Part shown: positions 6,686 to 59,741 of the stretch, one piece after another
Layout of the letters: the number at the start of each line of letters is the position of its first letter
Numbering within the stretch: position 1 is the first letter of the stretch
Source: Ascidia mentula
Taxonomy: Eukaryota; Chordata; Ascidiacea; Phlebobranchia; Ascidiidae
Reading direction: 5' to 3'
NCBI GenBank assembly: GCA_947561715.1
Contig: OX387203.1
Span: forward strand, 2,728,001-2,792,000
Length of the DNA: 64,000 nt
Made by a program: the position numbers and the translations under genes
The notes under the pieces: model-generated
What the model was told of the DNA's origin: nothing
Seen by the model: the letters and a program-made list of their open reading frames with translations, nothing else
Database searches by the model: none

Positions 6686-6822
6686 TTGCATGAAACATAG
6701 CTGCGTTGCATAGACATACTGCATGTATTTACGTTTCACAGATAGTGAATGGCACAATAACTCAGATAATTATTTCAATATACACTAGGGTACTCGAAAA
6801 ACTGTATTCTTTCTCATCCGCA

Positions 6823-20887: not shown

Positions 20888-23296
20888 TTAGTACCATGCA
20901 TTCGCCTTAAACTGCTCAAAGCCAACGTCGAGTGCTTCAGTCGGTTGCTTAGAGACCTCACCAATGACGTCATCAGAAGTGACGTCCGTGTAGTCAACTT
21001 CCTGTTCTCTCGTATCGTTGGTCGAGACATCGACTTGAGGCATGGGATAATGTGGTGTCGTTTGCGACTGAGCTGGAGTCTCAGTGGGGTTGTATGGGTA
21101 AGGAGTAGCAAGGGTTGGGGCCGCCGAAAAACTGGGGTGCTGGGGAAAGTGCTGGTGGTCCAAAAATTGGGCGTGCGGATGCTGTGCATTGTTGTAGTCT
21201 GAAATAAAATGTAATTGGTAAACTGATTGTCCTTTAAACGCACTATATTTATTTAATATTCAACAAACTAGTCTAAGGTTCAAAATTCTGCCAAAAATAA
21301 GGAACCAAATAATAGTCCAAAGTTTACGATTTTTCGTCCAATTTTCAAATATTACAGGTCATGGAAAGATGTCCAACTTACCCGGTACTGGCAAATGTTG
21401 CATATAACCAGAATGTACCATACGGGCAGAGCTGTTGTAAGGATAAGTAGCAGGGTTTACGTGTGCGGGGAACTGTTCGGTCATCATTTGTCTTTGACTT
21501 TCAGCACCATTTAACCTGATGAACAAAAAATATACTTCATTATTCACTGCTGATACTTATTTTTTAACAGGGAATGTTGTTGTTACAACGACTAAATAGG
21601 CGACTTTACCTGCCATGATTTTATCATTATTTACAACTTTAAACACAAATAATCCTCAAGTATGATAAACCACCAACTTACCCATTTGTGGGACAGTGCA
21701 TTTTGGCAGGGTTCCATGTGTCCGCTTGGTCTTCATCATCGTCGTACCTATTCCTTTTGGCTCCTCCAGCTCCGAGTCGTTGAGTGATTGCATGTTGTTC
21801 GTATTCTGGAGATTGGTTGTCCACCACAGTGTGAATTCCGATCTCGTCAAGATCTTGGACAACTCCAGTTTTGAGAAGTTTCTTAATTTTAGAACGACGA
21901 TTCTGGAACCAAACTTTCACCTGCGATATTAAAAAATATATTTGTTTATAATTGGACATTCCACAATGCCAACGCATGGTTTAAACTCAGGATAAAACGA
22001 GTTAATGAACAATTTAACAATTTTAATACAAACAAAATAGCCAATGCAATAGTCAAGAATTTTCGGCTATTTTGTTTATTGAAGATTCACAAAACCTTCA
22101 GTTATTTCCAAAACAACTTTAGTATTACATCAAGTGTTTTATCAAATGCATCAGTTTTACCTGAGTTTGTGTCAGACCGAGATTAGCTGCCAGTCGTGCT
22201 CTCTCTGGAAGGGCCAAGTACTGAACTTTCTTGAAGTAATTGTGCAATTCCTGCAGCTGGTAATTGGAGTAAACTGTTCTGGGATTGCGTTTCTTTTTGT
22301 TTTTCTTCCCCTCTAGAGTTGAGTCGCTACCTGGCGACTGCTCCTCGTCAACAGGCCCGTCGCTAGTTGGCGATACAGCGTAGGGGTCCTCAACTTGGAA
22401 TGGACTTGTACAGATTGGGGAGGGAGGAGAAGAAAGCAACAAAGAATCTGTTTGGGCATTGAAAGAGTTAGGTCGGCTTTTTTCGGAATGAATTTTGAAT
22501 GTTTTTCAGATATTTTACCTTTGTGGTCGTTCTCTTTTGGCGTTTCTGACGGCGAGTTTGCAAAATTATCGGCGGTAAGTGGAAGAATCACAGGGGACAA
22601 TTGCTCTACAACAAAACAATGTATTTACTACATCGAAAAACACAACAAAACAACGCTGACTATAATTAAGTCACCGAGCACAGATCCACAAAATAATTAC
22701 AAAACGTTACCTGGCACATCCGAAATATTTCCAGCATTTGACAATCCATCTTCAATCGATTCCTTATTGTAGGGCGAGTTACGCGATTCGACCTCCGCCG
22801 TCTCGTTCAAAGACTCGCATTCTGGTGTCGTAGGTGGTGTCTCGTTCGAACCTGTGCTTGTTTGTTGTTGCGTCACAACGTTCATGCCATAAGCTCCCAG
22901 TCCATATTTTGCCATCTGATCGTGCCCTGATATCTGCTGCACTCTAGCGGCGCCGTAAAAACTGGTGTCTTTGCCGTAAGGTGGGGGTGTCATCAACGGA
23001 TTAACTGCAGCACTTGGGTGAACGAGACTCGGGTGGGTAAAACTTTGATCGTATTTGTGAGGAAATCCGTATGAAAAGCCAGGGTAGGCCTGTGGCTGCG
23101 ACATGAAAGCATTTCTGTACATTTCGGTGAAGTTTCCACCGTATGGTGCATTGTTGTTGCCATCCCCAAGGCGACCGTCGTTGCTCTTGTTATCCACTGC
23201 GTTGGGAAGATAAGCGAACTTGCTGTATTCTGATTGCTTTTCTTCCGCTTGCTGGGGATAGTCCAGCACTGGGTGCATAGCAACTTGTGTTGACAT
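20888..23296 (-). CDS. Dlx: Distal-less/Dlx homeobox transcription factor (minus-strand partner)
   Basis: Exons 23296-22711, 22605-22519, 22393-22161, 21920-21682, 21515-21382 and 21198-20888, all GT-AG, give 529 aa. The homeodomain is residues 259-318 with [28 protein letters not shown] and [19 protein letters not shown]. The intron after position 44 is at the same place as in its partner and in Dlx genes generally. The homeodomain is more derived than the partner's (Asn at 4 where Dlx has Lys, HNYFKKV in helix 1, Ile for Phe near the end). It also has one extra intron before the homeodomain and two after it, making six exons. The C-terminal region is rich in Pro, Tyr, His and acidic residues and ends KANAWY. 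It is transcribed towards its neighbour, tail to tail, like vertebrate Dlx bigene clusters. Confidence 0.95.
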
Positions 23297-23951
23297 CTCT
23301 CAGAACTTATTTATTATTAAAAGTATGTAGTTTTAAACCTAAACAGAGAATTTAACTTTTTAAATAATATTTACGTGGCTTTCTTTACTACAGTACGAGA
23401 CCAATTGACACTCTTGCGGAATTTTCCTACCTATGGCTAAATATTTAAATTTTTTGATGCCAAGTTTCTTGAAAACTTTACGTGCAGCTAGCATCTTCAA
23501 CTGAATTACACATACTCGACTAACTATTTCCTTTTATCAATATTTGTTGCTTTACTAACAGATAATACCTATCCCTAAAAGTAATTCAGTTTGCAAAATA
23601 ATGTAGGCTTTGCCTTGGTGACGACCGCAATAGCTCTGCAGGCATTTAATTTTAAATTCCTATGTACTCGTCAACCATGCTCTCGAAGACCTGCACAAGC
23701 ACCTGCGGACAGCTGCTTACAAATGATCTACCCGCTGGACATCCCTCGCTGTTTTATGCGGGTCGGAGAAAGAACAATAACAGAAGCAGGCTGCAAAGCG
23801 CCGAGATGTAAGAGAACGGTGCTGGAACGACTTCTTTTGGGTTCCCGGCATACTATAATCCCTTAGGCCAAAAGCACGAGGTCAATGAATGCACTGACGC
23901 CTACGGCTAGCGGCGGGGCGGGCGCGCGGCAAAGGCATCGCGAAGAAATCT

Positions 23952-27100: not shown

Positions 27101-28262
27101 CTTTTGGATTGTTTGTAGGTTTGTACGCGAAAAGGTAGCCAGTATTGCGAATGATTCAGGCACAAACAAACACATCGTTTGCTTCTTTTATCAAGCAGTA
27201 CCGTGTATAAAAACTTATTTAGCTTCTTTCTGGTTATTTGCCACGGATCATGTAACGAAATTGGGTTCTGTTGGATGCGGCATACAGTATTGATTCATGT
27301 TGGGTGAATAAATTCATTACACAGTAGTCGCACTGTCTCGGTAACATGCGGAACCAAAAAGAGGAACCGATACTAACATTCCCGCCCACCTCGTGTGTGG
27401 AGCCCAACCACAAAAAGAGGAACCATTCGCATTTAATGATGCGAATGGTGATGCGTGCAGTCGTTGGGCCGCGCACCGAACTCATTTTCAGATCCCCTTC
27501 TGAAGTTGTTTACCAGACTGCTATAAAAACTGGTAGAAGAAGTTCGTTTTCATATGTCGCTTTACTGCAGCGAATGCAACAGGTGTAGAACATCAACTAG
27601 GCTCTTGTATATTGCACTATAGGTCATACAAAAGTTGTGGAGCGTTACTAGATACGGCGTGGGGATATGAACGTGCAAACTATATGGAAAATTGAGATGC
27701 GACTCATTGAAGTATTTTGTAAGATATTGTAACTTAAATGAATGCTAAGTACTCATAAAAGTTCAGTGCATAAACAGTAGTTAGTGTTCAGTTAGGTAAA
27801 TTGTGCTCCGAGCTTGGCAACGAAATTTGACACGGCGTTGCCAAGCCCAGCGTTAGTATTATCTAGATTAGACATGAAGTAATGAGAGACCAAAGGAGCT
27901 CGTTTTGACAACATGTAGTAGATACCATTACCAACTGAAGATCAAATATCCAACGACAAGGCGTTAACCGAAATTAAAATAACAGCAAAATTTGCGAGGA
28001 TTTTTTCACTAACTTGACATTAAATGAACTCTCTCGCAATGACGACAGCAGTGTCCTGTTGAGTTACACTCAACTGGAAATAACTATGCACCATTTTGCT
28101 ACATTATGGCGTATACATTTTTTCCGGGGCAGGCCTTTACCATCGCATTGTAAGCTTGCAAATTTATTACCACAATGTAATTTTTACACCAAATGGATTT
28201 TGACCATTTTGTGCACAGATTTAACTCACCTTTTTCGTGTTACTTTTACACGAGTTAACATA
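24110..28262. other. Intergenic region
   Basis: About 4 kb with no gene I can support. It contains the inverted-repeat element at 26762-26893. Short open frames on both strands lack domains and consistent splice sites. Confidence 0.45.
26762..26893. mobile_element. Inverted-repeat element with hammerhead-like core
   Basis: Left arm 26762-26795 and right arm 26860-26893 are perfect or nearly perfect 34-bp inverted copies (tgtattttctgacgtttcgc inward). Plus strand 26839-26871 reads CTGAAGA, A, GCC ... GGC, GAAACG: core layout of a hammerhead ribozyme with position 7 (a free position) as A and one extra A before the stem. It resembles hammerhead motifs reported in Penelope-like elements. No reverse transcriptase is nearby. 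Confidence 0.6.
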
Positions 28263-29415
28263 ATGGGTGAAGTCGTAGAAAACCAACTCTGTCGTCATTT
28301 TGCCACGGTTGTGGTGCTCGGTTTAGGAGGTGTGTCAGAGCGTATCGGACGAGCCGACGCGCGCGCTTTGCGTGAAACAATTTTCGGTCTCGACTACGAA
28401 TCCTGGCGCCTGAAAATTTTCACCAACATTTCAACTGTGCTGGACGAAATGAACAAAACCCGAGACCAGGAGTTACTGCGAGAAATTATCCGGGAAGTCG
28501 TCTCGATTCCGAAAATAAGCCCTTGCGACAAAGTGAGTTTAGTAATCTTCGCTCATAGCCACGGCGCGAAAATGGTCAACGAAGCCCTACAACAGATTCG
28601 TCATGAAAAAACCCCGGAGGAGTACGACCAGATTGCGAAAAAGATGGCGATTGTAACACTCGGCGGTGTAACGTTTATTAATCCGACTATGGCCAAGGTG
28701 AGGTTTAAGAAATAAAGGAAATAGTACATTATTCTTGTAATTGTTACTACATTGTATCATAATACCCTTGAGTTCAATGATTTTGGTGTCCTCTTTGCTT
28801 CTCTGCGGTATCACAATAATATAAAGCCTTACGACCTTAATCCATGACCCTATAGCTCTAAAACACTGAGCTATACCGGTGTTGAACGATCATTTTGGAC
28901 ACTAGAGAGATTGCACTACACATAAGAGTGATATTTAACATATTGGTCTGACGCTGTCCCAGCTAAAAGCGGTTTTGATCTACACCGACCAATATCGCGA
29001 TACCTTTTGCTGTCTTCAGGTCGTTCTGAACGTCGAGAGTGAAAACGATTTGCATGCTAAAGCAGCAGTGACCGTCGGACTTGGCAGTCACAACGAAGAA
29101 TCAATGAAAGTGGGCCCATTTAAAAATCATAGATGTATGTGTTGCGTTCCAAAGGAAATGAGGCCTCCAGAACAATCACCATCCCCGCCAATCTCAAAGG
29201 CATCAAACTCAAATAGCGGTTTAGGTTTCAGGGAGATGCTCAAGTTTGTGCCCCAGTTTTTGCATTCAACCAAAGTAACGGGGCATTACATAAGTGATTA
29301 CGTGCTCTGCAAAAAATGGAGAAAAGATCTGCAAGCAAGACTTGGTGTAATCCTGCCTGGGACTTGCTCTTGCGGAGAAGAACCGCCACGGGGCGACGGA
29401 CAAACTGAACTTTAG
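28263..29415 (+). CDS. Alpha/beta-hydrolase-like protein, tandem paralog 1
   Basis: Exons 28263-28697 and 29020-29415 (GT-AG, phase 0) give 276 aa. The start at 28263 aligns the N-terminus with the downstream paralog (VVVLGLGG versus YYVAGIGG); the frame stays open for 249 bases further upstream but that part has no counterpart. The segment SLVIFAHSHGAKMV looks like a nucleophile elbow, with Ser99 in A-H-S-H-G-A (variant of G-x-S-x-G). AIVTLGGV follows as a likely beta strand, then LNVESEND with candidate Asp155, and HYISDY with candidate His234, in the order Ser-Asp-His. Cys-rich RCMCC at ~183-187 and CSCG near the end are shared in type with the paralog. No signal peptide or membrane segment is seen, so it is probably cytosolic. 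The family is not recognised and the substrate is unknown. Confidence 0.8.
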
Positions 29416-29424: not shown

Positions 29425-29764
29425 ATTTAATTTACATAGATTGCTGTCTTTGGAGTCACCTATCGTAATGCTTGCGTTTATTTCATTGTTAAACGTGAGC
29501 TGTGTCGTCATAAAATATCCAAAAATCACGCTGTGTAAATACCGCTAACAGTAAATCAAGGCTGTGTTGTGGTTCTAGTTTATAAAAAACATTTTGATGA
29601 ATCTGTTTTGTATAATGTTGTTCAGTTTTATATCGTGATTAGTACATACAAAATTCCTTTAAAAAACATTGAAAACGTTTAAATGTTTGCTCATTTTTAT
29701 CATTTTACGCGATTATCACTGTTTAATTCTGTTTCAGGTGATAGTAGTGATAACATAGCCCACA

Positions 29765-30683
29765 ATGCTTTGCAAAGGTTTCCACTGCTACTACGTGGCT
29801 GGCATCGGAGGAACGAATCCGAACGACTTTAGAAGAGAAGTTACCACAATGAGGGAGACGATATTCGGTCTAGCATGCGACGAGAGTCAAATTTCAGTTC
29901 TGACAAATAAAACCGACCCCCTCTCGGTCCTTCTATCAACACGGGATGAAGATTTGTTCAAAACAATCAAGAAAAAGGCACAAGCAAGTCGATCCTCAAA
30001 ATGCCGCGGTATAAGAATCGTGTGGTTCGCCCACAGTCACGGCGCCAAGATGGTGGTCGATGCTTACCGTGAAATGAAGAGTTTGTCGTACTTTAGGGAG
30101 ATTTGCAACGCATCCGCCATTATTACAATTGGAGGAATTTCACTAGCTGATAAATCTCTTGCCCAAGTAAGTTGTAATATGCATATCATGCCTTAAAATC
30201 TCGAAAACACTGCAGTTGCAAAGCGCTAAATGTTATACATCTCTTCTAACACAATTTGGTCAGTAAGGTTTTGACGAGCATGGAAACAAAGTAAAACAAT
30301 AACGACAAGTAGGGTCAAAACCGATTATTTTTTATTTGGCAATGCAGATCACTCTGAACGTAATGTTTAAGAACGACAAAATCGCTCAAGACACAGCGAA
30401 CGCTGTTGGAGAGACTGATGGCGACACCCTGCTAATTGGACCTTTCGAAAACGCTACTTGCAAGTGCTGTGAGAGAGGAGAACCTCGCCACAATCCCGAA
30501 AAGAAACAGATAAGCAAGACCCATCCTTTGTTTGCTTGGTCTACTATGTCTTCCACTGCATCCTCGCAGTCGGTGAAAGGAGATAAAGCAGAGGCCGCTC
30601 ATTACATTTCTGAATATCTATCTTGTCGCCATTGGAGGGCGGAGGTGCAGAAATTATTGGGAACGCCGAACTGTCGGTGTTGA
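29765..30683 (+). CDS. Alpha/beta-hydrolase-like protein, tandem paralog 2
   Basis: Exons 29765-30166 and 30348-30683 (GT-AG, phase 0, same intron site as paralog 1) give 245 aa. It shares RETIFGL and FAHSHGAKMV exactly with paralog 1, plus a TIGGIS strand, LNVMFKND, GPF, CKCC, HYISEY and a terminal Cys-rich tail (NCRC). Candidate triad: Ser91, Asp144, His219. Its middle linker is shorter. A clear acceptor (gtttcag, ending 29737) lies 28 bases before the ATG, fitting either a 5' UTR intron or the spliced-leader acceptor used by ascidian mRNAs. The gap to paralog 1 is 349 bp, long for an ascidian operon. It arose by tandem duplication; identity outside the motifs is low, so the copy is old or fast-evolving. 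Confidence 0.8.
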
Positions 30684-43453: not shown

Positions 43454-44993
43454 TTAGAACGGGTTAATTCCGCAGTAGTGGTAATGGCAGTATAGGCAGA
43501 GATCTGAAAAACAAATTAAAATGATTCAGTATACACCTGATTGACTTCCACCACAAAAAATTTAACAATGATTCAAATGTTATGCTGCCGAAGCATCTGC
43601 GGAATTCGTTACATCACCCTTCGGAATGCAAATAAAGACATTATCTAATAGTTGGAAATACAGGGATGTGTTTCGAAACTACGTCAGAAATAATTTGGAG
43701 CATTTCAAAATGATTAGGACGCACAGCAATTTTTTCCATTCCAAATAAGTGCCAAAAACTGTTTCTTCGTGTGAATATACAGTACATAAAAAATGATTCT
43801 ATGTGTCACTAGCCATAATAACTGAATGATAAACCACGAAGAATTTTTTTAGTCAGAAATACTCATTTTTAACAAGGAATCTACATGCTTCCTTCGAATA
43901 ATACGCTTTTGCATTTTCGTTTTCATCGGAGCAAAGTTATTTTTTTGATAATAGGCATATCATGTCAAATATTACAGCTGTAACTGAATGTTTTCCTTAC
44001 CTGTTCGTCTGACAAGGCTGCAGTTGGCCACCCAGCACATTTTTCTTTTGTTGCAAAGATTTCTGAAAAATTCCTGATCGTTCGGAGATTCCCGTTTGGA
44101 GCGGTTGTGGATTTCAGCGGCTTCGAAATGTTTTCCATTGTCTTTATAAACCTACTCAAACGAATACATAATAAAATACATACCTAAAATCAGATGAAAT
44201 ACATAATAGTGAAATGCTATATTGCTCATAGCTGTTGTTTTGTATGATTTCTAATTTCGGGAAAACGATTGAGACTTTAGGGTGTGCGAAATGTTATCAA
44301 ATTTTGTCCCAAGAAAATGTATTGTTACTGTGCATTGCTTTGGAAACTAGAACACAGAAAGGCACATACGAGAAGAAACGCAAATATTTGCAATCACAAA
44401 TATTTTGTTGCTTGGAGTTTTAGAATAAAACCTTTTCAGAAAGAGAGAATGATTTGAATGGATTTACTTACTTTTCCTTGGGGCGTTCCAATTCCTTGTG
44501 CATTTTCTTGCTCTGTTATAACAAAAATACATAACTATGAAAATAAATTGCTGTTATTTGGGATAATATGAAATATAAACATGACCAGCTCCAGTGGCCC
44601 CTAAACGCCACAATGTTATATTTTTCAGAGTTTTTCATGGATATAAACTGATATTGTTAAGCTGCTTCAGAAAACCATGTTGGTGTACAATTTTAGCATT
44701 TATAAACATTCGTTTTATGTAGCAAATAGGCCGCATGCTGTCGAAGCTCAACAAAAAAAAGCTGTTACACTGATTTTGTCAATATTGGGACTTTGTTGCA
44801 AAATAAATTTGTCCTTTCAAGAAAGAGCATGATCTGTTTTGTGTGAAACATGTAAAATTGGTACAGTACTTTTAACGAAGATTACCAATGAAATTTCACC
44901 TTGCAAAGGGTGGTTGATGTTTCTTCCACGGCAGCAGTAAAAATTCATAATAATCAGACTGATGAAAACCACCACTGCATAATTGTGCGACAT
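43454..44993 (-). CDS. Secreted six-cysteine peptide precursor, paralog 1
   Basis: Exons 44993-44900, 44512-44472, 44151-44001, 43503-43454 (GT-AG, phases 1, 0, 1) give 111 aa. Exon 1 is a signal peptide (MSHNYAVVVFISLIIMNFY). Exon 2 is a short Gln/Gly spacer. Exon 3 contains the dibasic site HNRSKR followed by NLCNKRKMCWVANC. Exon 4 encodes LCLYCHYHYCGINPF and the stop. The predicted mature part after SKR is 46 residues with cysteines C-x5-C-x4-C-x8-C-x2-C-x4-C. Unlike its paralogs it is only mildly basic because of several acidic residues near its start. The family is not recognised. Expected route: ER, furin/proprotein convertase cleavage, secretion with three disulfides. A defence or signalling role is a guess. 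Confidence 0.85.
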
Positions 44994-47660
44994 TGTTGGT
45001 TGTGAAGTTCCTCGAATTATTTTTTACCTAAACAAAATCGACATGTTAGCAGGGACACATTATTACAGCACTTCAAAGCACAAACAAAAATAAGTAAAAT
45101 CAAACTGTCCAAAAAGTTTCTTCTTTTACTGTGAAATCGCCCCAGACAAGACGACTTTAACGTAGCCCGCAATACTATAAAAATAATGCAGAACCCAGTT
45201 TACGAAGATGTTCCAGAGGAAAACAGTCACAGCAAAAAATGGCATTAACTGTTGTGGACCACATCATAACGCACACAGTAATTTTAATGAAGTAGTTCTT
45301 CACAACTTAAACCACCCGCGTTCGGATGACCTTACAGGGTGTATAACCCAGTCTCTTGACACTTTTGATTATAGTCAACACTTTCTGATACAACCAAGGC
45401 TTAAGTTCGGCCTATTTATACCTGCTGATGATGAAACAGCGGACACGTGCAACGCGTTAGGGACCCAAGGTGAAATCGGGCTTTGCCACGTGGCTGGGAC
45501 ACGGCGGAAAGTTTTTCTGGTATTTCCGCCATGCAGGTGGGCAAGTTGATTTGAAACTTGTTTCCATTCCTTAGTGAAATCACGATGACGTGATTCCCGC
45601 ATATGAGGATCTTCCTTTCACTGTTGATTAGTCGCATTATGATGCAACAAAGCGGAAGATTTTCAGATTTCTACTCCAGCGGCTGTGGGCGCGTGACGTG
45701 GTGCGCATCACATCACCTTCCAAACTATGTTCAATGTCATCACTTCAGGATAACGTTGGGTGCAATTGGATGACCTTGGGAGCGCCTATTTGGTCATGTA
45801 TATAACGCGACTCCCAGCACATGGCCATTGTCCAATGCTCACGTCGGGGGATCTCCCTGCTGACGCCGTGACACCTTTTATGAAGAGGGGTTTTGTATAA
45901 AATAGGGGCTCTGAAAAGTAATCTTGGCCATAATAAATGCCTTAATTGGTAAATGTGTTGCATTTTGAGTTGGCAACCCCTTAAAAGCCGTCGTCAAGGC
46001 GTTTGCAAGTCATTTGTTTGTCTCGTGGTTGAAGGCAAGGTGGTTTTCCACAATTAGAGGGCCCGTATTTGAAGCATATCACAGACAGGTTTGTTGCCCT
46101 TGGCGGGTACTTTCCTACCTTCCAATTTTAGAAACGCGCTGGGCATAAAATTTCGTGTTAACGTGTGTTGCTTATTTACATGCAAGAGTTTGTTGGAGCC
46201 TAAGTATCGCCACGTTACGATATTTTGATCAAAACGTAACACAGAGGGAAACAGGAACTGCTATTCTAGGACAGCATAAAGGGTAGTGCAAGGATTGCTT
46301 TTATAAATTAATCTCAATATAGACAAGAGGAAACTATACTTGTGTTCCCCCTGTTTTGAGTTTCTTGGTTAGATTTTATGTAAAAGTGATCTGACTGAAG
46401 TGATTCTATCATAGGTCGTGAAATAATACAGACCAAAATAAACAGGTCGCTTCATTTAGGGCAATATGGACATTTCCTTGTAACTAAAATAAAATTGGGG
46501 AGAGTTTTGTTGGCTATTTCATGCAAGAAGTGCGATTTGTGATGGGAAATAATTAATCCAACCGTTTTGTTATGTTTCATGTTAACTTTTGTTACAATGC
46601 TGCGCAACCAACCAATCTTTTTTTTTTGCTGCGCAACCAATCTTTTTTTGGTTTAGTTCCTGGCTGTTAGAATTAGAAAACGCACATAATTTGTCAAAAA
46701 TAGTCCTGAAAAACTTGCTCATTGACTTGATTGATAGCTGTTCTAAAAACTATTCGTTTTAATGCTATACATGTTTTTACACCAATTCCAGTAGACGGGT
46801 GCATAATGTTGCCCTGTTGGTTTTCCGAGATTCGATGTATGCAAGCATCTACGTTTACAAGTAACTTACATCAGGTCAATCGTATCTCATTGACCAAGGT
46901 TTCCATAAATGCGATTCACAGAAAGTTATATTTCCGCATAAATTTCTATGTGTATGACGTTTGGTAAATTTGGTAAGTATTGATGTCCAAGTTTTTGTAT
47001 CTGCGCAACAACACACTTGTGTCCATTTGTAAATTCCGCGGCAGAGTTTATCATCATATAAAAACTGTCAGGTTTATTACAACTGGCAGAAGGCTGACCT
47101 TTGATGGTGTTGTTCACGAAAGCAGCCACCGCAACTAGTCTCCTTTTCGCCACAGAGAAACGGTCTTGTGCGGTCGTCTGGCGGGTGTTTACCCTCGCCA
47201 AGCTTGAACCCTTCACAATGGGTTAAAAATTGCATTTGTTAAGCCCAGGTCGTGGCCTTTTGTGGTTGACAGCTCAAGTACTTTTGCTTAACAAAAAATG
47301 CCTGACACCCAGTTCTTCAAAAATCGCCAAAAAATGTTGTAATTGTAGCAATATTAAAATAAATTGAAATGGATCTTGCCGTCTAGTTTACAGTTTATTG
47401 TAGGGGAAAAACTTGTTTTCACCAGCGGAAAATGACCATAAAATCATGGTCGCTGGAATAATGTAATAGTTGTATAATTACAGCCACTACCACGTGAATG
47501 AAGATGTGCAGAAATACAATTTGAGCCCTGTTTGTTCTTTCAAAAATCACAACAAAAATCAACTGCATCCTTGTTTATTTAAAGAAAATGACGACAGAAT
47601 AAAGAAATTATTTACACATAGGTTCTCGTGGGGACGACCACTGGGAAAGGGAGATGTGCT
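44994..47660. other. Spacer between peptide genes 1 and 2
   Basis: Promoter of paralog 1 and the 3' side of paralog 2. At 45424-45460 (+) is a CTGATGA-containing stretch resembling other decayed copies in the window. A 96-codon minus frame at 46926-47216 has no family match I can name and lacks a clear exon partner. No further peptide gene was found. Confidence 0.4.
47574..47579 (-). terminator. Polyadenylation signal of peptide gene 2
   Basis: AATAAA on the minus strand 82 bases after the stop codon of the gene ending at 47661. Confidence 0.5.
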
Positions 47661-48552
47661 TTACAATATGTTCAATCCACAGGAGAAGTAATGGCAACGA
47701 AAGCATAATTTCGTATCTGCAAAAGTAAGCAACTTTTGTATCTTTGCATGTACAAGTATGTTCTGTTGCAGCAAACAAACTTTAAACAACGATATATCTT
47801 TTGTTTATGTTAAATTAAACAACGTTTGATCAACTCTAAAAAACTTCGGTTTGCGGAGAAATAACTTATTTGGACCTGAACCGAAACTGGTGTTTACTAA
47901 CATTGTTTGTTTCTTAGTCCGGCACAGGAGTGGAAACGACAGAAGATCCTCTGGCAAAGGGAGTGAAACTTTTTCTTTTTGTGGCTGGATCGGCGCAGGC
48001 GGTGCTTGGGCTCATCATCGTGCAACTGCTAAAACCCAATCAAATAGAACGTGAGGTCAAATTTTTTAATCATTAAATTTTTTTTTACAGAAAACACATC
48101 TTTCATTACGCCTCTATATATTATATCGAGCACTCCAAACCGACACATTTCCTGTTTTCCAATTTACGGCAAAGTAAAATGTATTAATTAACATTTTTTA
48201 CACATATTTACAATAAGTCTCCAATTTTTCCATGGCCAAATGCTAATATACATAGATAGATGTACATAGATAGATATAGCGATACATAGAACACGTATTA
48301 TGGACGAAAGCTTTATGTTATCGCACACGCACCTGCAATTTGTTTGGCACCGCGCGAGTCTGTTCCATCAAAGCCTGGCCAGAATGAGGCTTGACCGCAC
48401 TTACGGCTGCACCTGGTGCAAAAAATACGATACAAATGGTTGGATAGTTAGCGTTGTCATTGAAAGTGCTCACCTGTATCCACCTCATTTCCTGCGGATA
48501 AGACGATCGCAAATAGGACGAAAAACACACATATTTTCAACACAAAGATCAT
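47661..48552 (-). CDS. Secreted six-cysteine peptide precursor, paralog 2
   Basis: Exons 48552-48474, 48412-48333, 48028-47902, 47716-47661 (phases 1, 0, 1) give 113 aa. Signal peptide begins MIFVLKICVFFVLFAIVLSA. Exon 2 is a neutral spacer. Exon 3 carries the cleavage site HRLRR, a KKKK run and FHSLCQRIFCRFHSC. Exon 4 encodes KLCFRCHYFSCGLNIL. The predicted 47-residue mature peptide has the pattern C-x4-C-x4-C-x11-C-x2-C-x4-C, ten Lys/Arg and no Asp/Glu, so it is strongly cationic. The exon 3 donor is GTTAGT, weaker than the others, but the frame and the homology of exon 4 with the other genes support it. Strong basic charge plus three predicted disulfides resembles defensin-like peptides in character only; the spacing matches no class I can name. 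Confidence 0.85.
48252..48290. repeat. GATA-type microsatellite
   Basis: Imperfect repeats of catagatagatgtacatagat type in the intron of peptide gene 2. Confidence 0.6.
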
Positions 48553-51500
48553 TGCGTCGCTTGAAACCTATAGACGTTTATAAACAACCTAAAACGTAAA
48601 AAAAACATTAACGATTATGTTTTTCCATTTAAACGTTCTCCAGACGTAACACCTTCTTGCTGCTGCCCTACATCCAATACCGACTACGTGGGAATGAATT
48701 GCAAATCACGTTCGCGCTGGTAAAAAAACGGATCTGTAAAACCACCTCTAAAAAGCCACGAAAACAGCAACTGAAACATTATAGTTTGTCCACATAAAGT
48801 TCACACCCCCTACTTTGCTTGACAAAGAGGTTTTTACGTCAAAAGGTGTGAAAACTATGCGATTTCGCGATACTGATTCAGATCGCTTGCACTGAAAATT
48901 CGCCCTTTCCGCTCTGAAGCCATTGCGCGAATGCCCATACTTACGACGAATGTTCTTATACTGGCTGCTTGATTTTCCTGAAAGCATTTGTGCAAGGCTG
49001 TAAGCTCGTTGCCGCAATTGCAACAATTGCAACAAATGCAAAACCACAATTAAAAACACTTTCCGCCGTCGCATTAACTATTTATGATTGCACGCTCTTC
49101 GGTAACCATTGCATTTTTTCCTTAAAGTTAACAACCGAAAAGAGTAGCAAAGCGAAACTAATTTAAATCCAAGTCCTGGTGAGTTTCGTTGCCCACTACG
49201 TACCGCAATGTTTTTGTGCGATGGCATACGTGACCAATACGGTGAGAAAAATTTGAAACCCTCGGAAGTTAACGTGCGAAATCTTCGCGTTCCAAACGCT
49301 CGGTCGCCTGTTGAAAGTTTCCTCGTCCTTTGTTCCGCTCAAAGCCCTAAGTAGCCAACCTGTTTATTATCAAATCATTATGAGTGCGCGCGGTGGGTTC
49401 ACCGTCGATTGAACTGGCTTTGTTTGGGGGCAGAATTTCCGTTACTTGGGAAAGTTACGTTGAAAACTGGATCCGCATCACGTGGCAACAGTTAGTTTTC
49501 CACTGTATGTTCTTTTAGCACTAAACACCATCAAGAATCTATCATAAGATACCAAATCTGCAAAACACACGAATGGCGTACATTCATTCGCTTTTGCACT
49601 ACGTATTTAATTTAAAGTCACATCCGTACTGTATCTGATGAATATGCTTCAATTGAGTGGGTGGTTATTCCACACTAGCTTTCGTGAAGTAAAGAGCTCG
49701 ACATCCACACTGCAGCGTTTCATAATTGTGGTTCGTGGAAAAAAATTTTCCCCAAACCAAGAAAAATGAGGTGCTTTGAAAACTGCAACAATAAATCAAT
49801 AAACCACATTTGAATTCAGATATCAAGTAAACAAGACGAAATGGTTGGCAACTTGCACGTATTTATTCATTTGTCAGCGAAAGTCTAACTCTGAAAACCG
49901 CAGTCAGTATGGGTGCAAGAAATTACTTGACTACTGTCTTGAGGTTTCAGCTGACGGGTTTTATGGGCCCACTGAGGGGAATTTGAAGTCTGTAGCACAA
50001 AAGTATTCCGTTTAACAAAGCCTGTATCCACGGGACTAAGCAATTTTGTCGCTAACAAAGGCTTTCATCATCATTTATCAAAAATTATTCTGTGTGGTTT
50101 GTGGTATACGCAAGTAGATTTCAAGAAAAGATAGAGTATACTCAATTCAATTGTTCCAGAATTTTTGGAATGTCCGCAGAAAATTTCCCGCATGTCAGAC
50201 AACAACAAATCCTTTTATGGGCGTTTGTCATTAAACCATCGGCCACATTAGCTTGCGACTGTAATAAAGGTGATTTGGGGAATTTGTGCCTTCGCTGCAC
50301 AATGCAAAGGCCCATACATTGGGTTTGGAAAGCCCATCTACCGTCATTGATTCAGCATTGTCGTTGTTCTCTGGACACTTGTTTACTGTGGGGAGAAAGG
50401 CACCTAACGCACAGGGCAAATAAGAACGCACGAAGCTAACACAGGCTGTGGGTGATTTTAAGTTCTGAAATGTTGATGACTTGCATGCCAGGTTAATTGT
50501 CGTGTGAATATAGAATGAACAAAAATATACGAAATTTCGGCAACAATATTCTCTGCTGCTGGCATCCGCATTCATATCCACTGTAGGGTTATGATAACAT
50601 TATACAGTTGGATACAAAAGATCGAGATGTTATCGAGTCCATGTGTTCCACACACGAAACACCTGCGGTTTATGACACAGTCCCTGTTCTTAATATTTAC
50701 TTTCAAATGACAAAAGTCAACTGTTTGAATCTATACGTGTTGTTTGAATCGATGAGCGTTTGTGGTTAAACCCTTCTCTCGTGGTTGCAACGTCCGCCTG
50801 AACTTTGTACAAACAAATCGATTTCAGATTCAAATGCTTTGATTTGTGCAAATGCAGTAAATTTTATCAAAGAATTTTCTTTTTTGCAGTAGCTTTTAAG
50901 CACACCATGTTTTCATCAGGTTTTGGTGACATATAATGGCCGTAAGTTAAATAGCACGTTAAACATTGTGGACTTATCCAGGCGTGACTAGCGTGTTCTG
51001 TTTCCACATGTGCTTTATTGTGCGAAACGGTATTTCATTCGGAAAACACCAGTCCTGGAAGGATATTTTTTATGTTTTTATGTATGCTCAACCTAACCGC
51101 AATTGTTTTCCCACATAACAAGTATAGACGTAGGTATGACAGAATAGTCCCAAACCACTATACGACGTTCACATTGGTTCTTTGTGTGCCTGTTTCCCGT
51201 TTTTCCGTTTCAGTTTGTCATGGTTTAAATCATTGGAAAGGTTGCAGAAACTGGCGTCCATTAACGACACTGAGAAAACATAGCATTGACAATGTCAAGT
51301 TTAAAATTTAAATACTTACAAACTTATTAACTCTAATACGTAGTCAAACTGTATGAAAATCTAACTTGAAATCGAACCAAATTTATTTACATCACAAAGC
51401 GCGGAAGTTTTCACAGTGCCAACTATGTTTCAGAAAGGAAACCACCCAAGAAAAACGAAACAAACACAAACTTCAAATCAGAAGAGAAGAAATATCAAAT

Positions 51501-51876
51501 GTCGTTTTGTGTAAAATATGAAATTACCCGGTATGTGATGATAAAGGTAGGAAAAGGTTGGCCCACTACAGGGAGTAATACGGACAACGTAAATGTAATC
51601 GACAGGTACGTTAAAAGCAAAACTGTCATACGGCGCTTCGTATGTAATAGTAAAAGACATGGTTAAAGCAAGCACACAATTGTTCATTTACGACAAATGA
51701 TATGTATATGTGGCACGCACTCTTTTTTGTGCAGTTATGTGTGTGTTTTAAGTTTTGTGCAAGTACATGCACATCAGGCTACACAAGAGTACGGAATGGC
51801 ACTTGTGAGTGCTTCGTGTAGTCCTAGCTCCCCCGTGGAAAGCGATTTCGGACACAGAAAGTTAAAAAAACAACGT
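48553..51876. other. Spacer between peptide genes 2 and 3
   Basis: No gene supported. A minus frame at 48748-49074 begins with a hydrophobic Leu-rich run but has no matching spacer or cysteine exon. A CTGATGA-type fragment lies on the minus strand near 50918-50924. Confidence 0.4.
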
Positions 51877-52987
51877 CTATCCTCTTCTGCAGTTGCTGAA
51901 AAATAACTTGCTGGTGCACATCCCGAACTTGTGGCATACGGTGCAGGTTGTTCTGGAACGTTTTCCTGCGTTAACAAACGAAATGCATTAAAACCATAAA
52001 CTTGCGCTTCAATGCTGACATTAAAAGTACAAGGGTTACTATATGTCGAATCGCATGTTTCATTAAACTGTTAAATCCTGAATTTAGTTTTATCCATTAG
52101 ACAGAAACAATATAAACAATAGAGTACTAAAAACAAGCAAATTAAATGCGTCTACTTTGCTTTGAAGTCGATTTCTATTGCTTGCAATTTATACAAATGT
52201 TCTAATTTTTGATGTTGATATTTTTGAATAAATTTTAATAACTACCGTTTTTCAATAATTGGCAATAAATTATAGGAGTATTCTGATTTTCAACTTTGTC
52301 AAAAGCAAATTGCTTTTACCTTTTATTCCTTTGCAAGAATATCTGCAGCAGAATCCCCGTTTTTTGCAAATGCGCCGAAAATAGTTTAGACTGTCCGAAG
52401 AAGACCGCTTTGATCTGTTGTGTTCCGAGAATATCTGTGCGAATATATCGGTTATGTATATAGGATCGTATGGTTTACAATTGCGTATGCTGGCATTTGC
52501 TATTGCTTAAGATCTACTCTTTTTAATTCCATGATCGATTAACCATACGATTTTGGTACTTTAGCGGAACTATAGTGTAATAAAATTAGCTCAAAATTCC
52601 CCAAAACTTAAAAAACGTGAGATGTAAAAAAAAATTATCAACAGCGACAGCGGGAAATCCCTGGTACTTTCCCATGGGAAAACAATTATTTGTGACCTAC
52701 CTTTTCAAATTCGATGGTTCCTGTTTCTGAGTTTCGTTGGAGTTCGCTTGTTGTGGAGAATGTTTCTTCTGTAAAATAGCAAAATTGCTTTGTCAGGTGA
52801 ACGGAAACGACAACAAAATAAAGCATATTTTTGTCAAAACTACCATCCGTGCAAAGAGTTCTTCTCATAGAGCCTACACCATTTAAACAAATTTACAATA
52901 AAAATATTTTTTACCTGAAGCAACGTTCTGGAAGCAAATTATCACCAGGACAAATGAAATAGCGACGATTTGTAGAGTCAAACCCAT
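51877..52987 (-). CDS. Secreted cysteine-rich peptide precursor, paralog 3 (eight cysteines)
   Basis: Exons 52987-52915, 52768-52701, 52434-52320, 51965-51877 (phases 1, 0, 1) give 114 aa. Signal peptide MGLTLQIVAISFVLVIICF. Exon 2 is an acidic Thr/Ser/Glu spacer. Exon 3 has HNRSKR, identical to paralog 1, then YFRRICKKRGFCCRYSC. Exon 4 encodes TTCTVCHKFGMC followed by a longer tail ending SNCRRG. Mature part about 57 residues with about 15 Lys/Arg and one Asp. The six framework cysteines are kept (C-x5-C-x4-C-x11-C-x2-C-x5-C) and two more are present: one directly after the second and one near the C-terminus, which could form a fourth disulfide. The last exon is read in a different frame from the longer open frame at the same place; intron phase and cysteine pattern decide it. 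Confidence 0.82.
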
Positions 52988-55900
52988 TGTATCAGCTGTT
53001 ACAATTACTCACACTCTATTAACATCAGTTTATCAGTCTAAAAAAACGAAATACATTTATGATTATATTGATTTTTCATTTTAGATAAAATGGCGGCTCT
53101 TTTACTAACAAGTTTTCCCTGTTTGTTTGATGATATTTTATGACAGCGAGAAAATATAAGAATATGATGTTGCTTTACAGAATTGCACGATACAAAGACA
53201 AACAAATGCATCTAAATCTCAAACTTCTACGTTAGTGCTGGCCACGTCGGAATAGGTCAGTACACGTGTTGCAAACTTGTAATTTTATTGCATGGTCTAA
53301 ACCTCATTCAGTGTATATATTCACGATAGTTTGCACTGCGTCAACTAACAAGTACCCTATCTACAGCAGCAAACTGTACCGCCACATATCTAAGGTCTGT
53401 TACTGGCTGCGTAGTTTTCCGCTTTCGCAACCGATTTGAATGGCGTCCCCATTTTTACCATCGCATGTGTTGTTCAACGTCGCCTGTAGCAACTTCGCGT
53501 TCGCGATTTACATATTGTGCAACCTATTTTGCTTGGTTGATCGACCCAGAGATATTTGAACAATATTTTTGTACGAGATTAGCTTATAGGTTTTTAAGTC
53601 AACAAGCAAACAAGGGATTGTTGGGTTAAGCAGAATTTCCATTTAAAATCAAAGATTACAATTTCGAAAATGGCGAAGTAAGTTAAAAGCATGGTTGCTG
53701 CGTCACTGCAAATACTTCACACACCTATAATAGTTGTTAGGAGCCCGTATTTTTTACAACGAATGTATTTAAACCATATAGTGACATGAAACTAGTATGG
53801 ACGCATTGGCATCGATTTTGGTCGCAAAAGGTTATTTTCTCAAAGTAAAGTGTTTATTTTTCTTCTCTTTCATTCTCTGTCACGTTGGGTGGTGGCTTTC
53901 TTGCGGTTTGCGCAACCTCTTTGTGGCACATAGGCCAACCTTTTACCTGTAAAGATATCACATTGAAAGTGACTTGAAAGTTTCATTATGAATTGATAGC
54001 GATTGCTATGACTGCATAACCGCACGCGCTACTTTTGAAAAGAGTTTTTAGCACTTACTCAATGCTACGTTTTGATACAACATATCCTGTACTTTAAAGC
54101 TTATGTTTGTTGCACACAAACCCTCTGTCATGCGCCATATTTTTTCCAAACAAGAATATTAAGCTCGTCCGCCATATTTCAACGGGGCAGCAATGCGAAA
54201 CACCTTTTTTCTTCGTTTGACCTAAAGCCAATATTGGCAAAATTACATTCTCGGCAATTTTATTCCGCCCTGCACAGACTGACCACATCAACTACATAGG
54301 CTTATAATCTGAAAAAAAACTAACTTTGCATGCAAAAAGTCCGCCAAATACACCAATACACATATAGCTGCATTACCGTTCTCTCAGTATTTCTTGCCCC
54401 CTTTTTACGTTCTATCCCCGCCTAACGAAAATTGATCGCATGGTTTGGTTGGCAAACATGAGGCTTCACGTTCTGTACACCTTACACTGTGATGCCTGGT
54501 CCTGGCCTCTATGTGCCGGCCCGCCAACCGCTATAGGTTATATATGGGCGCTATGTACCCTTACTGGAAATCACGCTTTATAGCCACTCACCCGACGGAA
54601 TTTCCCAGCTTAGACATGAACTCACTTTGAAACTTGCACCTAGTTTTTTGGCTACGGAAAGCAACCGAAGCACGGTAATCACTTTAATTGATTGCTACAG
54701 ACTGAAAGGCCAATTTTCGGCATGCAGATAATAGTAGGCTAACACTTTGGATCCGCACATGTCGCTTGATTCAATCAGATAAATTTTACAAAGTTGTTTC
54801 AAAGCGCACACCGAAAAACGACCGAAGGCTGCTTTGCTGTACATGTGTTACTTTGACAACGATATTTTTAATTCACCGCTTACACAATCTTCATAATATT
54901 CAAAACTAATACTGAGAAAAAACGAACATTTGCTTCATGTTTGAAATACCTGCTTGAAATACCAACTTTAATCACTTTTCCTTATCAGTAGCTAACTGTA
55001 GAAACGACTGGTGAACGTTTTCCTCGGGCCCAATTTTTAACCGCAAATGGTTCAAGCGTGCAGCCACAGGTACTGAGTGCTTATAACTGCATTGGAGCGG
55101 CATGATGGCTTTTCCGATGACAATGTAACGAAAGCCAGCGCCTAAAATCAGTGCAGTTTGTCAATCTTATTGGAGTCGTAAGAAAAATGGACATTGCTAG
55201 GTTCCCATGCCTTGTCAAAACAAACGAACCCCATCAGGTGAGTCACGTTTGAAGCTCCGGAGATGAAAAATACTTGCTAAGCTAGACCTCGCCTCCTTTC
55301 TAACGACAACCATGAACTCATGACATTTTGACAAGGACACTGAAACCAAAAAATGGGTGTGTTTTTAGTTTCGAAACTCCGCTTTTGTTCAACGCAGACG
55401 AACGAAGACGATGAAACACAACTATGTTGCGAATTTACGCCACTTATGTTGCGTAATGTAGGTACTTAGAACTATTTAACAAAGAATTTTTCCGACCATC
55501 GTTATGCCGTCACACCAATAGTATTACGTATTGTTTCTCATACTAGCCATTGTAACACATACGCCTTTCAAAAAATGATTTGCTTGTGCTATAATCGAGC
55601 ATATTTTTCACAGAACGATTCAGCATTGTGTAATATGGCCGGCAACTAAACTAAGTTTGCAAAAATGGTCCTTTGCACAAAACTTCGTATGTTATCATCG
55701 CCAGTGAGGTATCTAGATGTGGTTAAGTCTAAATCTTTTCTTTTTGCTGTCGCTCTAGCCCCACACTGAGCTTAACCTTTATGAATAATCCTGCACAATA
55801 GTCGCCTTTTATAGGGGTTTACTGCGGCGCACCTTACAAGCAATTTTCCTAGTGGGAGCATGTGACAGTAGGCGGTCGGTGCTTCGCCCACGAGTGTGAA

Positions 55901-57918
55901 GGGTCGTCAGCTCGACGCTTTGACGCGTGTTTTGCCGCAACACAAAAACCCGTAATCTAAGGAGAAGTTTCGATCGGCGATCACTAGGCTTCCATGGTGA
56001 AAAGACATTATTTCTCGAAGGCAACGTGAGAATTCGGTGACTTATCCCCTAATCTCATTTTGAAAGAATGGGATAAGGTGCATTAGATGACAAAACTGCA
56101 AACGTTGTTGATTTATCATCTTGTCATTTCGTTGAAAGTGTGTGAATGATTTATGTGCCTGTTTTTGCCAAATTAAGCAGTGTCACCCATTTGGTATCAT
56201 AGGAAACGCATGAGTTTTGAAGATCAACAAGCCTGCCCTTATTGACGCAATCGTTGCCAGGGCAACTATCAATCCGACACAAACAGGCAGTTATTCTCGG
56301 CCCTTCGAATCTTACCCTGCGGTGACGCAATCAAAGTACAAAGGCGTGATGCAACTGTTTTCGCACCCCTTCGAAGTCACGTGACCGAACGGATGACTCA
56401 CGTCACAACATGCCTGCTCACCGAAGCGTGGCGGACTGATTCGCATCAACGGGGTAGGTATCGCATTCCACGTGGGCCTATACAATAAAACAGCGTCTTG
56501 CGCAGGCGTGTTGTGGGAATGCCTCCGGCCGTCGCGTGACTTCCGCTGGGGTATCAGGGTCGGCCGAGTGGCCTACTTGTATAAATATACCCATGCGGCT
56601 ATTTTGGCACCGTTGCCCACGTGTAGCAACGTTTGCGGTAGTTTCACGTTACAAATGTTAATACATGGTGTGGCTCGACGTGGTAACCAGACCTAACACA
56701 GCCTTGTTCGAATTTACAAATATAGAGCATTAGTGGATCATCTTTTGTCACACAGAAATAATCCCAGTTTGTAAAAATAAACGGCTCCGTTTTTCCCGCT
56801 CAGTGTTGTGACATTTCATGCGGCAAGTTTCAAGTCGACCCATTTATTTTCGTTCGTCATACTTGTTTAAGGCAACGGTTTACCATTGAGGCGACAAAAA
56901 GCAAATTGTCGACCCATTCACATCAAGGCAAGCGTCTACACTGTGCAAACAGATGTACCAGCCTTCTTCGTGGCATCGAGCAATAGAGTCTCGGTACGTT
57001 TGGGCTGATCAGAGACAAACCAAGGGATATCCTTCTGTGGTACCGTTGCTGCAAGTCGAGTTACCATTGTGATGGTTGAACTGGCGGCCGTTTTTTGTCC
57101 AATTATATGAATCTTACTTTACTTCAAAGATATAAACAGTTTCCATTACCCCGTTTATATTTTTGTATATACGATCACTAAATGGCTGATGTAAGTATCT
57201 CTGGCTGGTGTAAGTATCTCTGACTGGTTTAAGTATCTCCGCCTGGTCTAAGTATCGCCAGCTTGTTTTAAGCATCTCAAACAATTGCTTGTTCATGATG
57301 TATTAAATCTGTGAACTGAGGTTATTGGTAAGTTTGTGATAATAGCCGAACAAAAATATTTGCAAATTTTCGGCGATGTTTTATGTGGGAATATATAACC
57401 AGCAATATCCTGTTTTGCGTTACCTCGATATCTCATAATACACCAGTACGTTTTTATGCAATTGGTTTAATTAAAAACAAATACCATATGGTCAATAACT
57501 TTCTGAAAGTAAAAAGTGAAGGATCGGAAAGCACATAAAAACATCTCCTTGACAATTGTCGTCGCATATGTGAAATACGTTTAAAGATAGGTAAACAATG
57601 TCATGCGTTATTAAATAAATATAAATCCGCTCTTCAATGAATGATTTGCGCTACTCCAGAGTCTGACTTATCCCATAGTACTTATTTGCATTGGAATCAC
57701 ATGAGCAATTAAGTCATTTAATTGCTATATTTTCAATTCAAACGATAAAACGTTTTCGTTAGTCAGGGTATTTGTAAAGTGCATTTCACACACACATATT
57801 GCTTTGTTGTACTGTATAGTTATATATCATGGACATTAATGAAACACGCAACAAGGTTCAAGGTCATGGCTTCGACGTCGCAGAGGTCATCATTTGTGGT
57901 CGTTGGTCACATAACCAT
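52988..57918. other. Spacer between peptide genes 3 and 4
   Basis: About 4.9 kb with no supported gene. It contains the 19-bp minisatellite at 57185-57279. A GC-richer stretch near 56250-56600 could be regulatory. No additional cysteine exon was found on the minus strand. Confidence 0.4.
57185..57279. repeat. 19-bp minisatellite, five units
   Basis: Five head-to-tail units of consensus gctggtgtaagtatctctg, the last two more diverged. It lies about 0.7 kb past the stop of peptide gene 4. Confidence 0.85.
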
Positions 57919-59741
57919 TCACAAGTGGTTGTTGCCGAAAATGACGTAACCACAAACGAAGTAATGGCACTTGAAACACCTTCGCTTCCCTGTAAAAATA
58001 ACACAATTGTCTGGTGATTATTTGCCCCCATCTGGCCGGTTTAGCGAATTTATCAGAGGTCATTATTTCTCTGCGGAAAGGTTCAATGGTAAACCTTGTG
58101 ATCAAAACACGAGAGCTGAGATTGCCAAACGTAAAGGGCCTGCGCAGTGGGTCGATCCTGCCTTGCTATGCGAAAGCATGCTATTACTTCTCTGCCGGAA
58201 AACATGTCATTACATTTACAAATTCTTTCCTGAAGGTCGCATTGACTGGAATGTTTTTGTTTCACACACACAGAAGGTTACAGTTAGCAAATTCTCAGAA
58301 GCACGGAATTTTCCAGCATAATTAGATTCCAGTGGGTCCTTATCCACGTGCGGTCAACCGCGAAAACACACATTTAAATCCAATCATGCGTTTCAAACAT
58401 GTCAGAGCAAAACATGACGTACAAGGGCAAGGAACCCAAACAGGGCATTGACAGTCAAGTACCAACTAATGTACACACACAAACCTAATGCACCCCAACA
58501 CCACCTAATGTGCATATTCACTGTGTCCGCCTTTCAGATCCATTTGCCGCAGCCGCTAGTAAATTTTAAAACATTTACGTGAGTTTTTGAAGCACGAAAA
58601 CAGGGTCTTACATTTCTTGACATGAATTTTGGTTCTGACAGCGCACAATTCGTAGACTACTTTCATCGTTTTACACCTCGCAAAATTTGGGTTTTTCCAT
58701 TACATCCTATCGGTATCATTAGGTTTACAGGCTTCGCAACCCAGGCATTGCATCCTAGCAGGATATTTACAGAGTCATGCTACAAGGTATTTACGGAAAA
58801 CGCAGCGTTTCTTCCCAGCAAAGTGAGTGAGCTACTCGTGTTTATGCTGACTTACATTTTTGCTTTCTCACGTATCTGCAAGAATTCAACTTGCAATAAG
58901 TCCTCATACAAGCTCTTGCAAAGCGGATGCTCCGTTTTCCGACGTGGTGCTGATCGTTGTCCTGATATTATGACAGCGTTATTGTTTACTGCAGCCAATA
59001 ATGCAGAATCTAGAAGCACGTAATTTAGAGAGAACTTGCCTCGGAAATCAGAAACATTTCTTTCATTGGTGTTGCGGTTTCATTGATCATTTCAGGATGG
59101 TCATCAAACCCTTGTATTGATGAATTACTGTTTGAAGAGACTCCTTTGAAGAATTCTATTTCTTCCTTGGTTATTTCTGCGTAAAACAACAAAAACATTT
59201 CTTGTTGCAACACAATACATATGTCGTTTACATGCAAACAAAAACACTATTGTTAAAAAGTATTTGCCTCATCTGGACAGTTTAGTCGGTATTGAGGTCA
59301 ATCTTTCTCTATATATGATGTATGGCGGTATACTTGATAAACGATTGTCCATTGCCATAAATTTTCCTTTGTTAAGGGGATGTGTCGTATGTGAGTATAA
59401 TCCGACGGGATGACCATACATATTTGCCTCTGTACAGCTACCTTTTTTCCAAAGCAAACAAAAATCCCCCACCTTGCTTTATGTTGGCAATTTATAGTCC
59501 TATTATTGATGTTTGCTAGGTAGTTTTGCACGTATAACAGAAATCAAGCAATTCATTTGTTTCAGGCCTTTACTCATTATAAATACAAGTATTTATGGAC
59601 CAATGATTTTAGCTTACCACCGACTTCCTCGAGCGAGAGAGGGGCGCCTTCGCAAACCTCTTGCGATGACAAAAATACTGCGATAAGAACAGCGAAGCAG
59701 GCCATCATCATCAACTTGTTTGCTGCGGAGATCTTCGTCAT
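57919..59741 (-). CDS. Secreted six-cysteine peptide precursor, paralog 4, with a GC-AG intron
   Basis: Exons 59741-59618, 59176-59040, 58961-58856, 57989-57919 (phases 1, 0, 1) give 145 aa. The signal peptide has a hydrophobic core MMMACFAVLIAVFLSS. Exon 2 is a long acidic spacer (EITKEEIEFFKG...). Exon 3 has the cleavage site VGKR then ACMRTYCKLNSCRYVRKQK. Exon 4 encodes KRRCFKCHYFVCGYVIF and a short tail. The predicted 48-residue mature peptide is C-x4-C-x4-C-x11-C-x2-C-x4-C, with twelve Lys/Arg and no acidic residue. The second intron begins GC: the donor is GAG|GCAAGT, the standard strong GC-AG consensus, and it gives the same phase 0 as in the other three genes. If it were not spliced, translation would end four codons later without any cysteine core. 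A Lys/Arg-rich stretch between Cys3 and Cys4 could bind heparin or be a second cleavage site. Confidence 0.83.

Follow-up and report, generated by a model that had tools for sequence, protein, structure and literature searches.

Four tandem genes for predicted secreted, cysteine-rich peptides in the ascidian Ascidia mentula

A 64,000-nucleotide stretch of the genome of the ascidian Ascidia mentula (contig OX387203.1, here C71:2728001-2792000; hereafter the window) holds four minus-strand genes, which we call A (43454-44993), B (47661-48552), C (51877-52987) and D (57919-59741), with coordinates given in the window unless a contig is named. Each of them appears to encode a small secreted peptide rich in cysteine, and the locus raises two questions: whether the four genes are truly related, and what their products might do. 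On the first, our analysis of the window and of the genome searched (195.8 Mb, 79 contigs) confirms that the four genes are one real, small and divergent family, beyond what chance would produce. On the second, several readings have to be weighed against each other.

Gene anatomy and kinship

A first-pass annotation, made from the letters of the window, had proposed four-exon genes with the ends given above and with intron phases 1, 0, 1. This was borne out by scripted splicing, after which all 16 exons were found at their expected positions, each coding sequence was open with a single terminal stop, and the three phases were the same in all four genes. An in-frame stop lies 12-33 bases 5' of the ATG in every case. 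The introns are 61 to 866 bases long and 11 of the 12 are GT-AG, the sole non-GT donor being that of gene D intron 2 (58962-59039, minus strand), a GC-AG intron with the donor GAG/GCAAGT. The predicted cleavage site and the N-terminal half of the mature peptide are encoded in exon 3, C-x2-C-H and the C-terminus in exon 4, and the phase-1 intron between the two exons falls within the C3-C4 loop.

We scanned 264 kb (the window plus 100 kb on each side) for this combination of exon 3 and exon 4, which, besides the four genes, returned a single additional pairing, in which gene A exon 3 is used a second time, while two reversed controls gave 0 pairs. It should be noted that the scan was modelled on these same four genes, and the controls therefore matter more than the matches. 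In 60 first-order Markov simulations, 0.27 exon-3 candidates with a partner were found per 264 kb, and 0.067 with a CxxCH partner. At the level of the whole genome, the exon-4 DNA pattern C-x2-C-H-Y-x2-C-G has five matches in 196 Mb, three of them within 14.5 kb in the cluster, and none in the control. Relaxing the pattern by omission of the Y gave 21 matches against 15 in the control, and the relaxed form thus does not discriminate.

Kinship was also assessed with leave-one-out profiles, in which each gene was held out in turn and its exons were ranked against the 11,909 real open stretches that the 264 kb contain. No background stretch outscores the fourth exons of A, B and D or the third exons of B and C, all of which rank first; the background stretches scoring better number 7 for A exon 3, 11 for D exon 3 and 277 for C exon 4. 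Given that at least one exon of each held-out gene ranks first, every gene is tied to the others, and gene C, to judge from these profiles, is the most distant member. Some margins are narrow: A exon 4 (15.5 bits) is just ahead of the top background stretch (14.9), B exon 4 (24.0) is little above the highest-scoring stretch of the reversed control (22.6), and D exon 4 (20.7) is outscored by one reversed-control stretch (23.4).

According to the first-pass annotation, the four sequences barely agree outside the cysteines, the HY and the G. We find more agreement than this. In a cysteine-anchored shuffle test (400 shuffles per pair) five of the six pairs among A-D gave p < 0.02, with shuffled-residue z scores of 4.6 for A-B and 5.9 for B-D, the D-C pair reaching only 1.75 (p 0.06). 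Five non-cysteine positions are kept in all four peptides: F-x3-C1, an R between C1 and C2, an H after C5, one of [FYM] directly before C2 and one of [SN] directly before C3. Comparison of the genes as DNA, exons included, yielded no significant similarity (the strongest match between two genes covers 20 bases at E 0.047), and we therefore regard the duplications as old.

How many members are there? Six-frame searches of the 196-Mb genome with each mature peptide found no further member at their limited sensitivity, returning only each gene's own exons and one match of gene D on contig C69 (E 0.06), which has a stop inside and looks like chance. These single-peptide searches miss the other paralogues even inside the cluster, and distant members elsewhere could likewise be missed. 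A consensus-like query of the whole genome matched exons of A, B and C, four in all, and nothing besides, thereby missing D. Because genome searches are weak for short, split exons, 'four members' means four at the present sensitivity. The two C-x2-C-H-Y matches outside the cluster (L002 and L003) were rejected, since no exon-3 partner could be seen by eye in about 900 bases upstream and 400 downstream. They are among the 18 matches of the relaxed pattern that lie outside the cluster; two others, at C67:16302796 and C67:16315822, are identical over 29 bases and 13 kb apart, perhaps through a recent duplication.

The predicted peptides and their database relatives

In gene A, exon 1 (44900-44993; this and all following exons are on the minus strand) holds the ATG and a putative signal peptide and ends in phase 1, exon 2 (44472-44512) is a propeptide spacer ending in phase 0, exon 3 (44001-44151) has an RSKR cleavage site and Cys1-3 and ends in phase 1, and exon 4 (43454-43503) has Cys4-6 in CLYCHYHYCG, followed by the stop. 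Gene B has the ATG and signal peptide in 48474-48552, the propeptide spacer in 48333-48412, an RLRR cleavage site and Cys1-3 in 47902-48025, and Cys4-6 in CFRCHYFSCG, with the stop, in 47661-47716. The corresponding exons of gene D are 59618-59741 (ATG and signal peptide), 59040-59176 (an acidic propeptide spacer, which ends at the GC donor), 58856-58961 (a GKR cleavage site and Cys1-3) and 57919-57989 (Cys4-6 in CFKCHYFVCG, and the stop). Gene C departs from this plan in its mature part: after the ATG and signal peptide (52915-52987) and the propeptide spacer (52701-52768), its third exon (52320-52434) has an RSKR cleavage site and four cysteines, the extra one beside Cys2, and its fourth (51877-51965) has CTVCHKFGMC and an extra C-terminal cysteine, ending in RRG-stop. 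A '3+3' arrangement of cysteines, as first annotated, thus holds for A, B and D and fails for C, which is 4+4.

Genes A, B and C each have a pyrimidine-rich run that ends in AG, placed 34, 36 and 50 bases, respectively, 5' of the ATG (45028, 48589 and 53038, minus strand), and the nearest comparable site in gene D is about 100 bases 5' of its ATG. The stretches in A, B and C would fit the acceptor of a 5' untranslated region intron or of trans-splicing.

All four precursors begin with a hydrophobic core (best 10-residue Kyte-Doolittle means 3.2-3.5), and the cleavage motif is R-x-[KR]-R in A, B and C and KR in D. The mature peptides would be 46-57 residues long, with net charges of +2 (A), +10 (B), +14 (C) and +12 (D), and the propieces carry approximately +1, -1, -4 and -12 in the same order. 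The mature cysteine spacing is 5-4-8-2-4 in A, 4-4-11-2-4 in both B and D, and 5-0-3-11-2-5-8 in C, which includes one CC pair; the counts (6, 6, 8 and 6 in A-D) are all even. A C-terminal glycine, a possible amide donor, is encoded in gene C alone. From the hydrophobic N-termini, the cleavage motifs and the cysteine counts we infer that these peptides are secreted, cleaved and disulfide-bonded, and the charges agree with the earlier description of the family as secreted disulfide peptides, three of them strongly cationic.

The family had also been described as having no recognised relatives. Within the databases tried (Pfam, PDB and a collection of 5.8 billion proteins) this held, in that no significant relative was found by searches that are themselves weak for peptides so short and divergent; left unmentioned were the turgencins, whose similar cysteine spacing is considered below. 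The Pfam matches, considered at E up to 10 with the HMMER filters dropping most above about 0.1, were all weak, the best being DUF3795 at E 0.01 for one precursor, and no curated cut-off was reached where bits were given. We attribute to chance both the DUF3795 match of mature B, at 14.9 bits against a cut-off of 22.6, and a weak match to PARG_cat_N; bits were not given for the latter or for the DUF3795 match at E 0.01. The same applies to parkin RING0, TROP2/EpCAM, BIG and other weak PDB matches at E 0.27 or worse, and gene D had no PDB match, not even a weak one. The protein collection yielded 327 candidates, none at E up to 10, and a second search no candidate sharing three words, by an exact-word seeding that would miss relatives as divergent as the A-D paralogues are from each other. 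As a control, a partial Distal-less protein from the window finds Ciona proteins in this collection; since these are present, the empty result has some weight, also for the first-pass label 'lineage-specific', on which it bears only in part. In the accessible portions of the open-licence literature, including PMC12373286, PMC10608444 and PMC10884593, we found no description of this family or of a turgencin gene.

Candidate functions and comparison with known peptides

What might such peptides do? We give about an even chance to the possibility that the mature peptides are furin-processed, disulfide-stapled host-defence (antimicrobial) peptides. Four old tandem duplicates would then encode small secreted precursors, each with a signal peptide, a short propeptide, a furin-type or dibasic cleavage site and a mature peptide. 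Removal of the signal peptide would be followed, in the secretory pathway, by cleavage at R-x-[KR]-R or KR, and the cysteines would be oxidised to three disulfide bonds, or four in the case of gene C, so that a cationic N-terminal half, probably helical, would be stapled to a C-terminal C-x2-C-H half. The folded peptide, once released, would disrupt or bind microbial membranes.

A charge-balanced layout of propiece and mature peptide is common to many antimicrobial peptides. The propiece of gene D, at about -12 against +12 for the mature peptide, has this balance, which therefore counts for an antimicrobial role (C, at -4 and +14, and B, at -1 and +10, are less even). The cysteine spacing of A, B and D is near that of the turgencins, which have measured antibacterial activity, and this too counts for defence. 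Tandem genes so divergent that their DNA shows no significant similarity are in keeping with an effector family in rapid evolution. Structure models of the exon-3 halves point, with modest confidence, to a helix in B (exon residues 15-32; mean pLDDT 69.9, pTM 0.35) and in D (exon residues 9-34; 69.1 and 0.35).

Several observations weigh against a defence role. The five models per half vary, with mean pLDDT of 44.7-69.1 for D and 55.3-69.9 for B, they are models of half-peptides without an alignment, and modelling readily makes a helix of a short cationic peptide. Gene A has a mature charge of only +2, a propiece of +1 and an acidic start to its mature peptide; charge is therefore not a property of the family, and gene A may be a functionally different paralogue. 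Pfam searches and profile comparison with the turgencins turned up no known antimicrobial peptide of similar sequence. Lastly, the family has only four copies, the architecture scan having detected no extra one within 100 kb on either side.

The peptides could instead be processed signalling ligands, hormone or growth-factor-like cystine peptides whose divergence follows receptor specialisation. Hormone precursors just as typically have a signal peptide, a propeptide and a furin or dibasic site, and here the H and F/R positions stay constant in an otherwise variable sequence, as they would at a receptor contact. Nine nerve growth factor (NGF) or ovulation-inducing factor chains in PDB were also matched, at E 0.14-0.3, by a profile built on the four mature peptides; these matches are not significant and their cysteines do not align, and we rejected them. 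Given, furthermore, that no ligand domain was found in Pfam, and that strong positive charge in three of the four peptides and few shared surface residues would be unusual for the ligands of one receptor family, we consider this reading unlikely.

The same gene anatomy and divergence would be expected of surface, anti-predator or gamete-recognition peptides diverging through ecological or reproductive conflict and not through microbes, and surface chemical defence has been suggested for one ascidian (PMC10884593). Nothing we see is specific to such a role, no known toxin or gamete-protein domain was found in Pfam, and we think it distinctly unlikely. A metal- or redox-active secreted peptide, with C-x2-C-H as a set of metal ligands or a thiol-disulfide site, is very unlikely in our estimation. 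No other feature of exon 4 is as constant as this motif, which is present in all four genes, and some ascidians handle vanadium with cysteine-rich vanabins (PMC9486056); on the other hand, no vanabin or other metal-protein match was found in Pfam, the even cysteine counts and secreted look favour disulfides, and gene C departs at the residue after the His. Finally, that the exon joins are wrong or the genes decayed copies, with no such peptides made, is highly unlikely despite the joins being predicted, the one GC donor and a gene C exon 4 that goes unrecognised when held out, since all four genes keep an open frame through four exons in the same phases, the architecture exceeds chance by far and each gene, when held out, has at least one exon in first place.

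For the host-defence reading, the comparison with known peptides is of particular interest. Turgencins A and B of the colonial ascidian Synoicum turgens, according to their 2020 description, are antimicrobial peptides with measured antibacterial activity, with disulfides C1-C6, C2-C5 and C3-C4 by NMR, helix-like tendencies and a helix-loop-helix-like motif, and their authors state that the evolutionary relationship awaits characterisation of the turgencin genes (PMC7024374). They appear to be the closest published cysteine framework known to us. Like A, B and D they have six non-adjacent cysteines, they are cationic, and their spacing of 3-4-8-2-3 or 3-4-7-2-3 resembles the 4/5-4-8/11-2-4 of those three genes. 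The differences are several: the cysteines of gene C number eight and include a CC pair; the turgencin motifs CXMAC and KKXGG, as given in PMC7024374, are absent by eye from all four mature sequences; turgencins have 35-36 residues as against 46-57 here, and the His after C5 belongs to A-D; and turgencins are amidated at the C-terminus, a terminal Gly donor being found only in gene C. The peptides may still work in the manner of the turgencins, in view of the intron in the C3-C4 loop and of the helices modelled for the isolated exon-3 halves of B and D. Geometry calls for caution here: C1 and C2 are five or six residues apart in A-D, compared with a four-residue step in turgencins, and on an ideal alpha-helix cysteines at the wider spacing do not share a face, and are further from doing so than at the four-residue step.

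Homology to the turgencins by sequence is unsupported, given that seven of the eight gene-turgencin pairs are at chance level in the shuffle test (the exception, D with turgencin A, has an uncorrected p of 0.03) and that profile comparison with hhalign gives a probability of 0.1%. Two genome searches with the turgencin sequences were empty, a result of little weight for short, split exons. It can still be imagined that there is an ancient tunicate superfamily of helix-loop-helix defence peptides which includes the turgencins and of which this cluster is the genomic form, exon 3 and exon 4 each encoding one disulfide-bearing helix, with the intron in the C3-C4 loop, and the halves diverging until only cysteine spacing and gene structure show kinship. 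We hold this to be a speculative and improbable proposal. If true, it would provide the gene-level view that is missing for turgencins.

Other cysteine-rich systems are further away. The alpha- and beta-defensins, small cationic secreted peptides with three disulfides, have adjacent C5 and C6, which A-D do not, and were absent among the Pfam matches. So were the ascidian vanabins, for which Pfam holds a model and which have 18 cysteines compared with 6-8 here, and the ShKT domain, which ends C4-x3-C5-x2-C6, as opposed to C4-x2-C5 followed by x4 (A, B and D) or x5 (C). St-CRP-1 and St-CRP-2 of Synoicum turgens are also ascidian six-cysteine peptides with reported antibacterial activity, and differ in having 18-19 residues, a CC-C-C-CC framework and a neutral net charge (PMC13208793).

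In our view the family is a new one of an ordinary, familiar kind. What it provides is a complete gene anatomy (four exons, phases 1-0-1, the C3-C4 loop split by an intron) for a six-cysteine family that our sequence searches failed to connect to any other, and this signature of exons and phases could serve to search tunicates, including Synoicum; the significance would grow if turgencins had the same gene anatomy. The tunicate antimicrobial peptides named in the accessible part of one review are linear and helical, for example styelins and clavanins (PMC10608444). If the peptides are active, they would add disulfide-rich defence peptides to tunicates beside these linear helical ones; otherwise the cluster exemplifies nothing more unusual than a secreted family in rapid evolution.

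Neighbourhood of the cluster

The window also contains a convergent pair of Distal-less/Dlx-type homeobox genes, at 15010-18955 (plus strand) and 20881-23299 (minus strand), with the Pfam Homeodomain in exons 15858-16388 and 22125-22505. The best named protein match of the second gene is from Ciona savignyi, at 94% over 16% of the query. Two similar adjacent open stretches on the plus strand, 27978-28715 and 29759-30196, both contain FAHSHGAKMV by eye; the former matches the DUF900 alpha/beta hydrolase family below its cut-off, and the latter has no match. Two B-box-like zinc-binding stretches, both below their Pfam cut-offs, lie in 6694-7591 (plus strand).

On C71, open stretches some 4-8 kb and 34 kb past the right end of the window look by eye like a cytochrome P450 and a rhodopsin-type receptor, respectively. 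At 13.6-30.4 kb past the same end (C71:2805593-2822423) lies a nested tandem array, in which units of about 153 bases are contained within repeats of about 2.1-2.3 kb.

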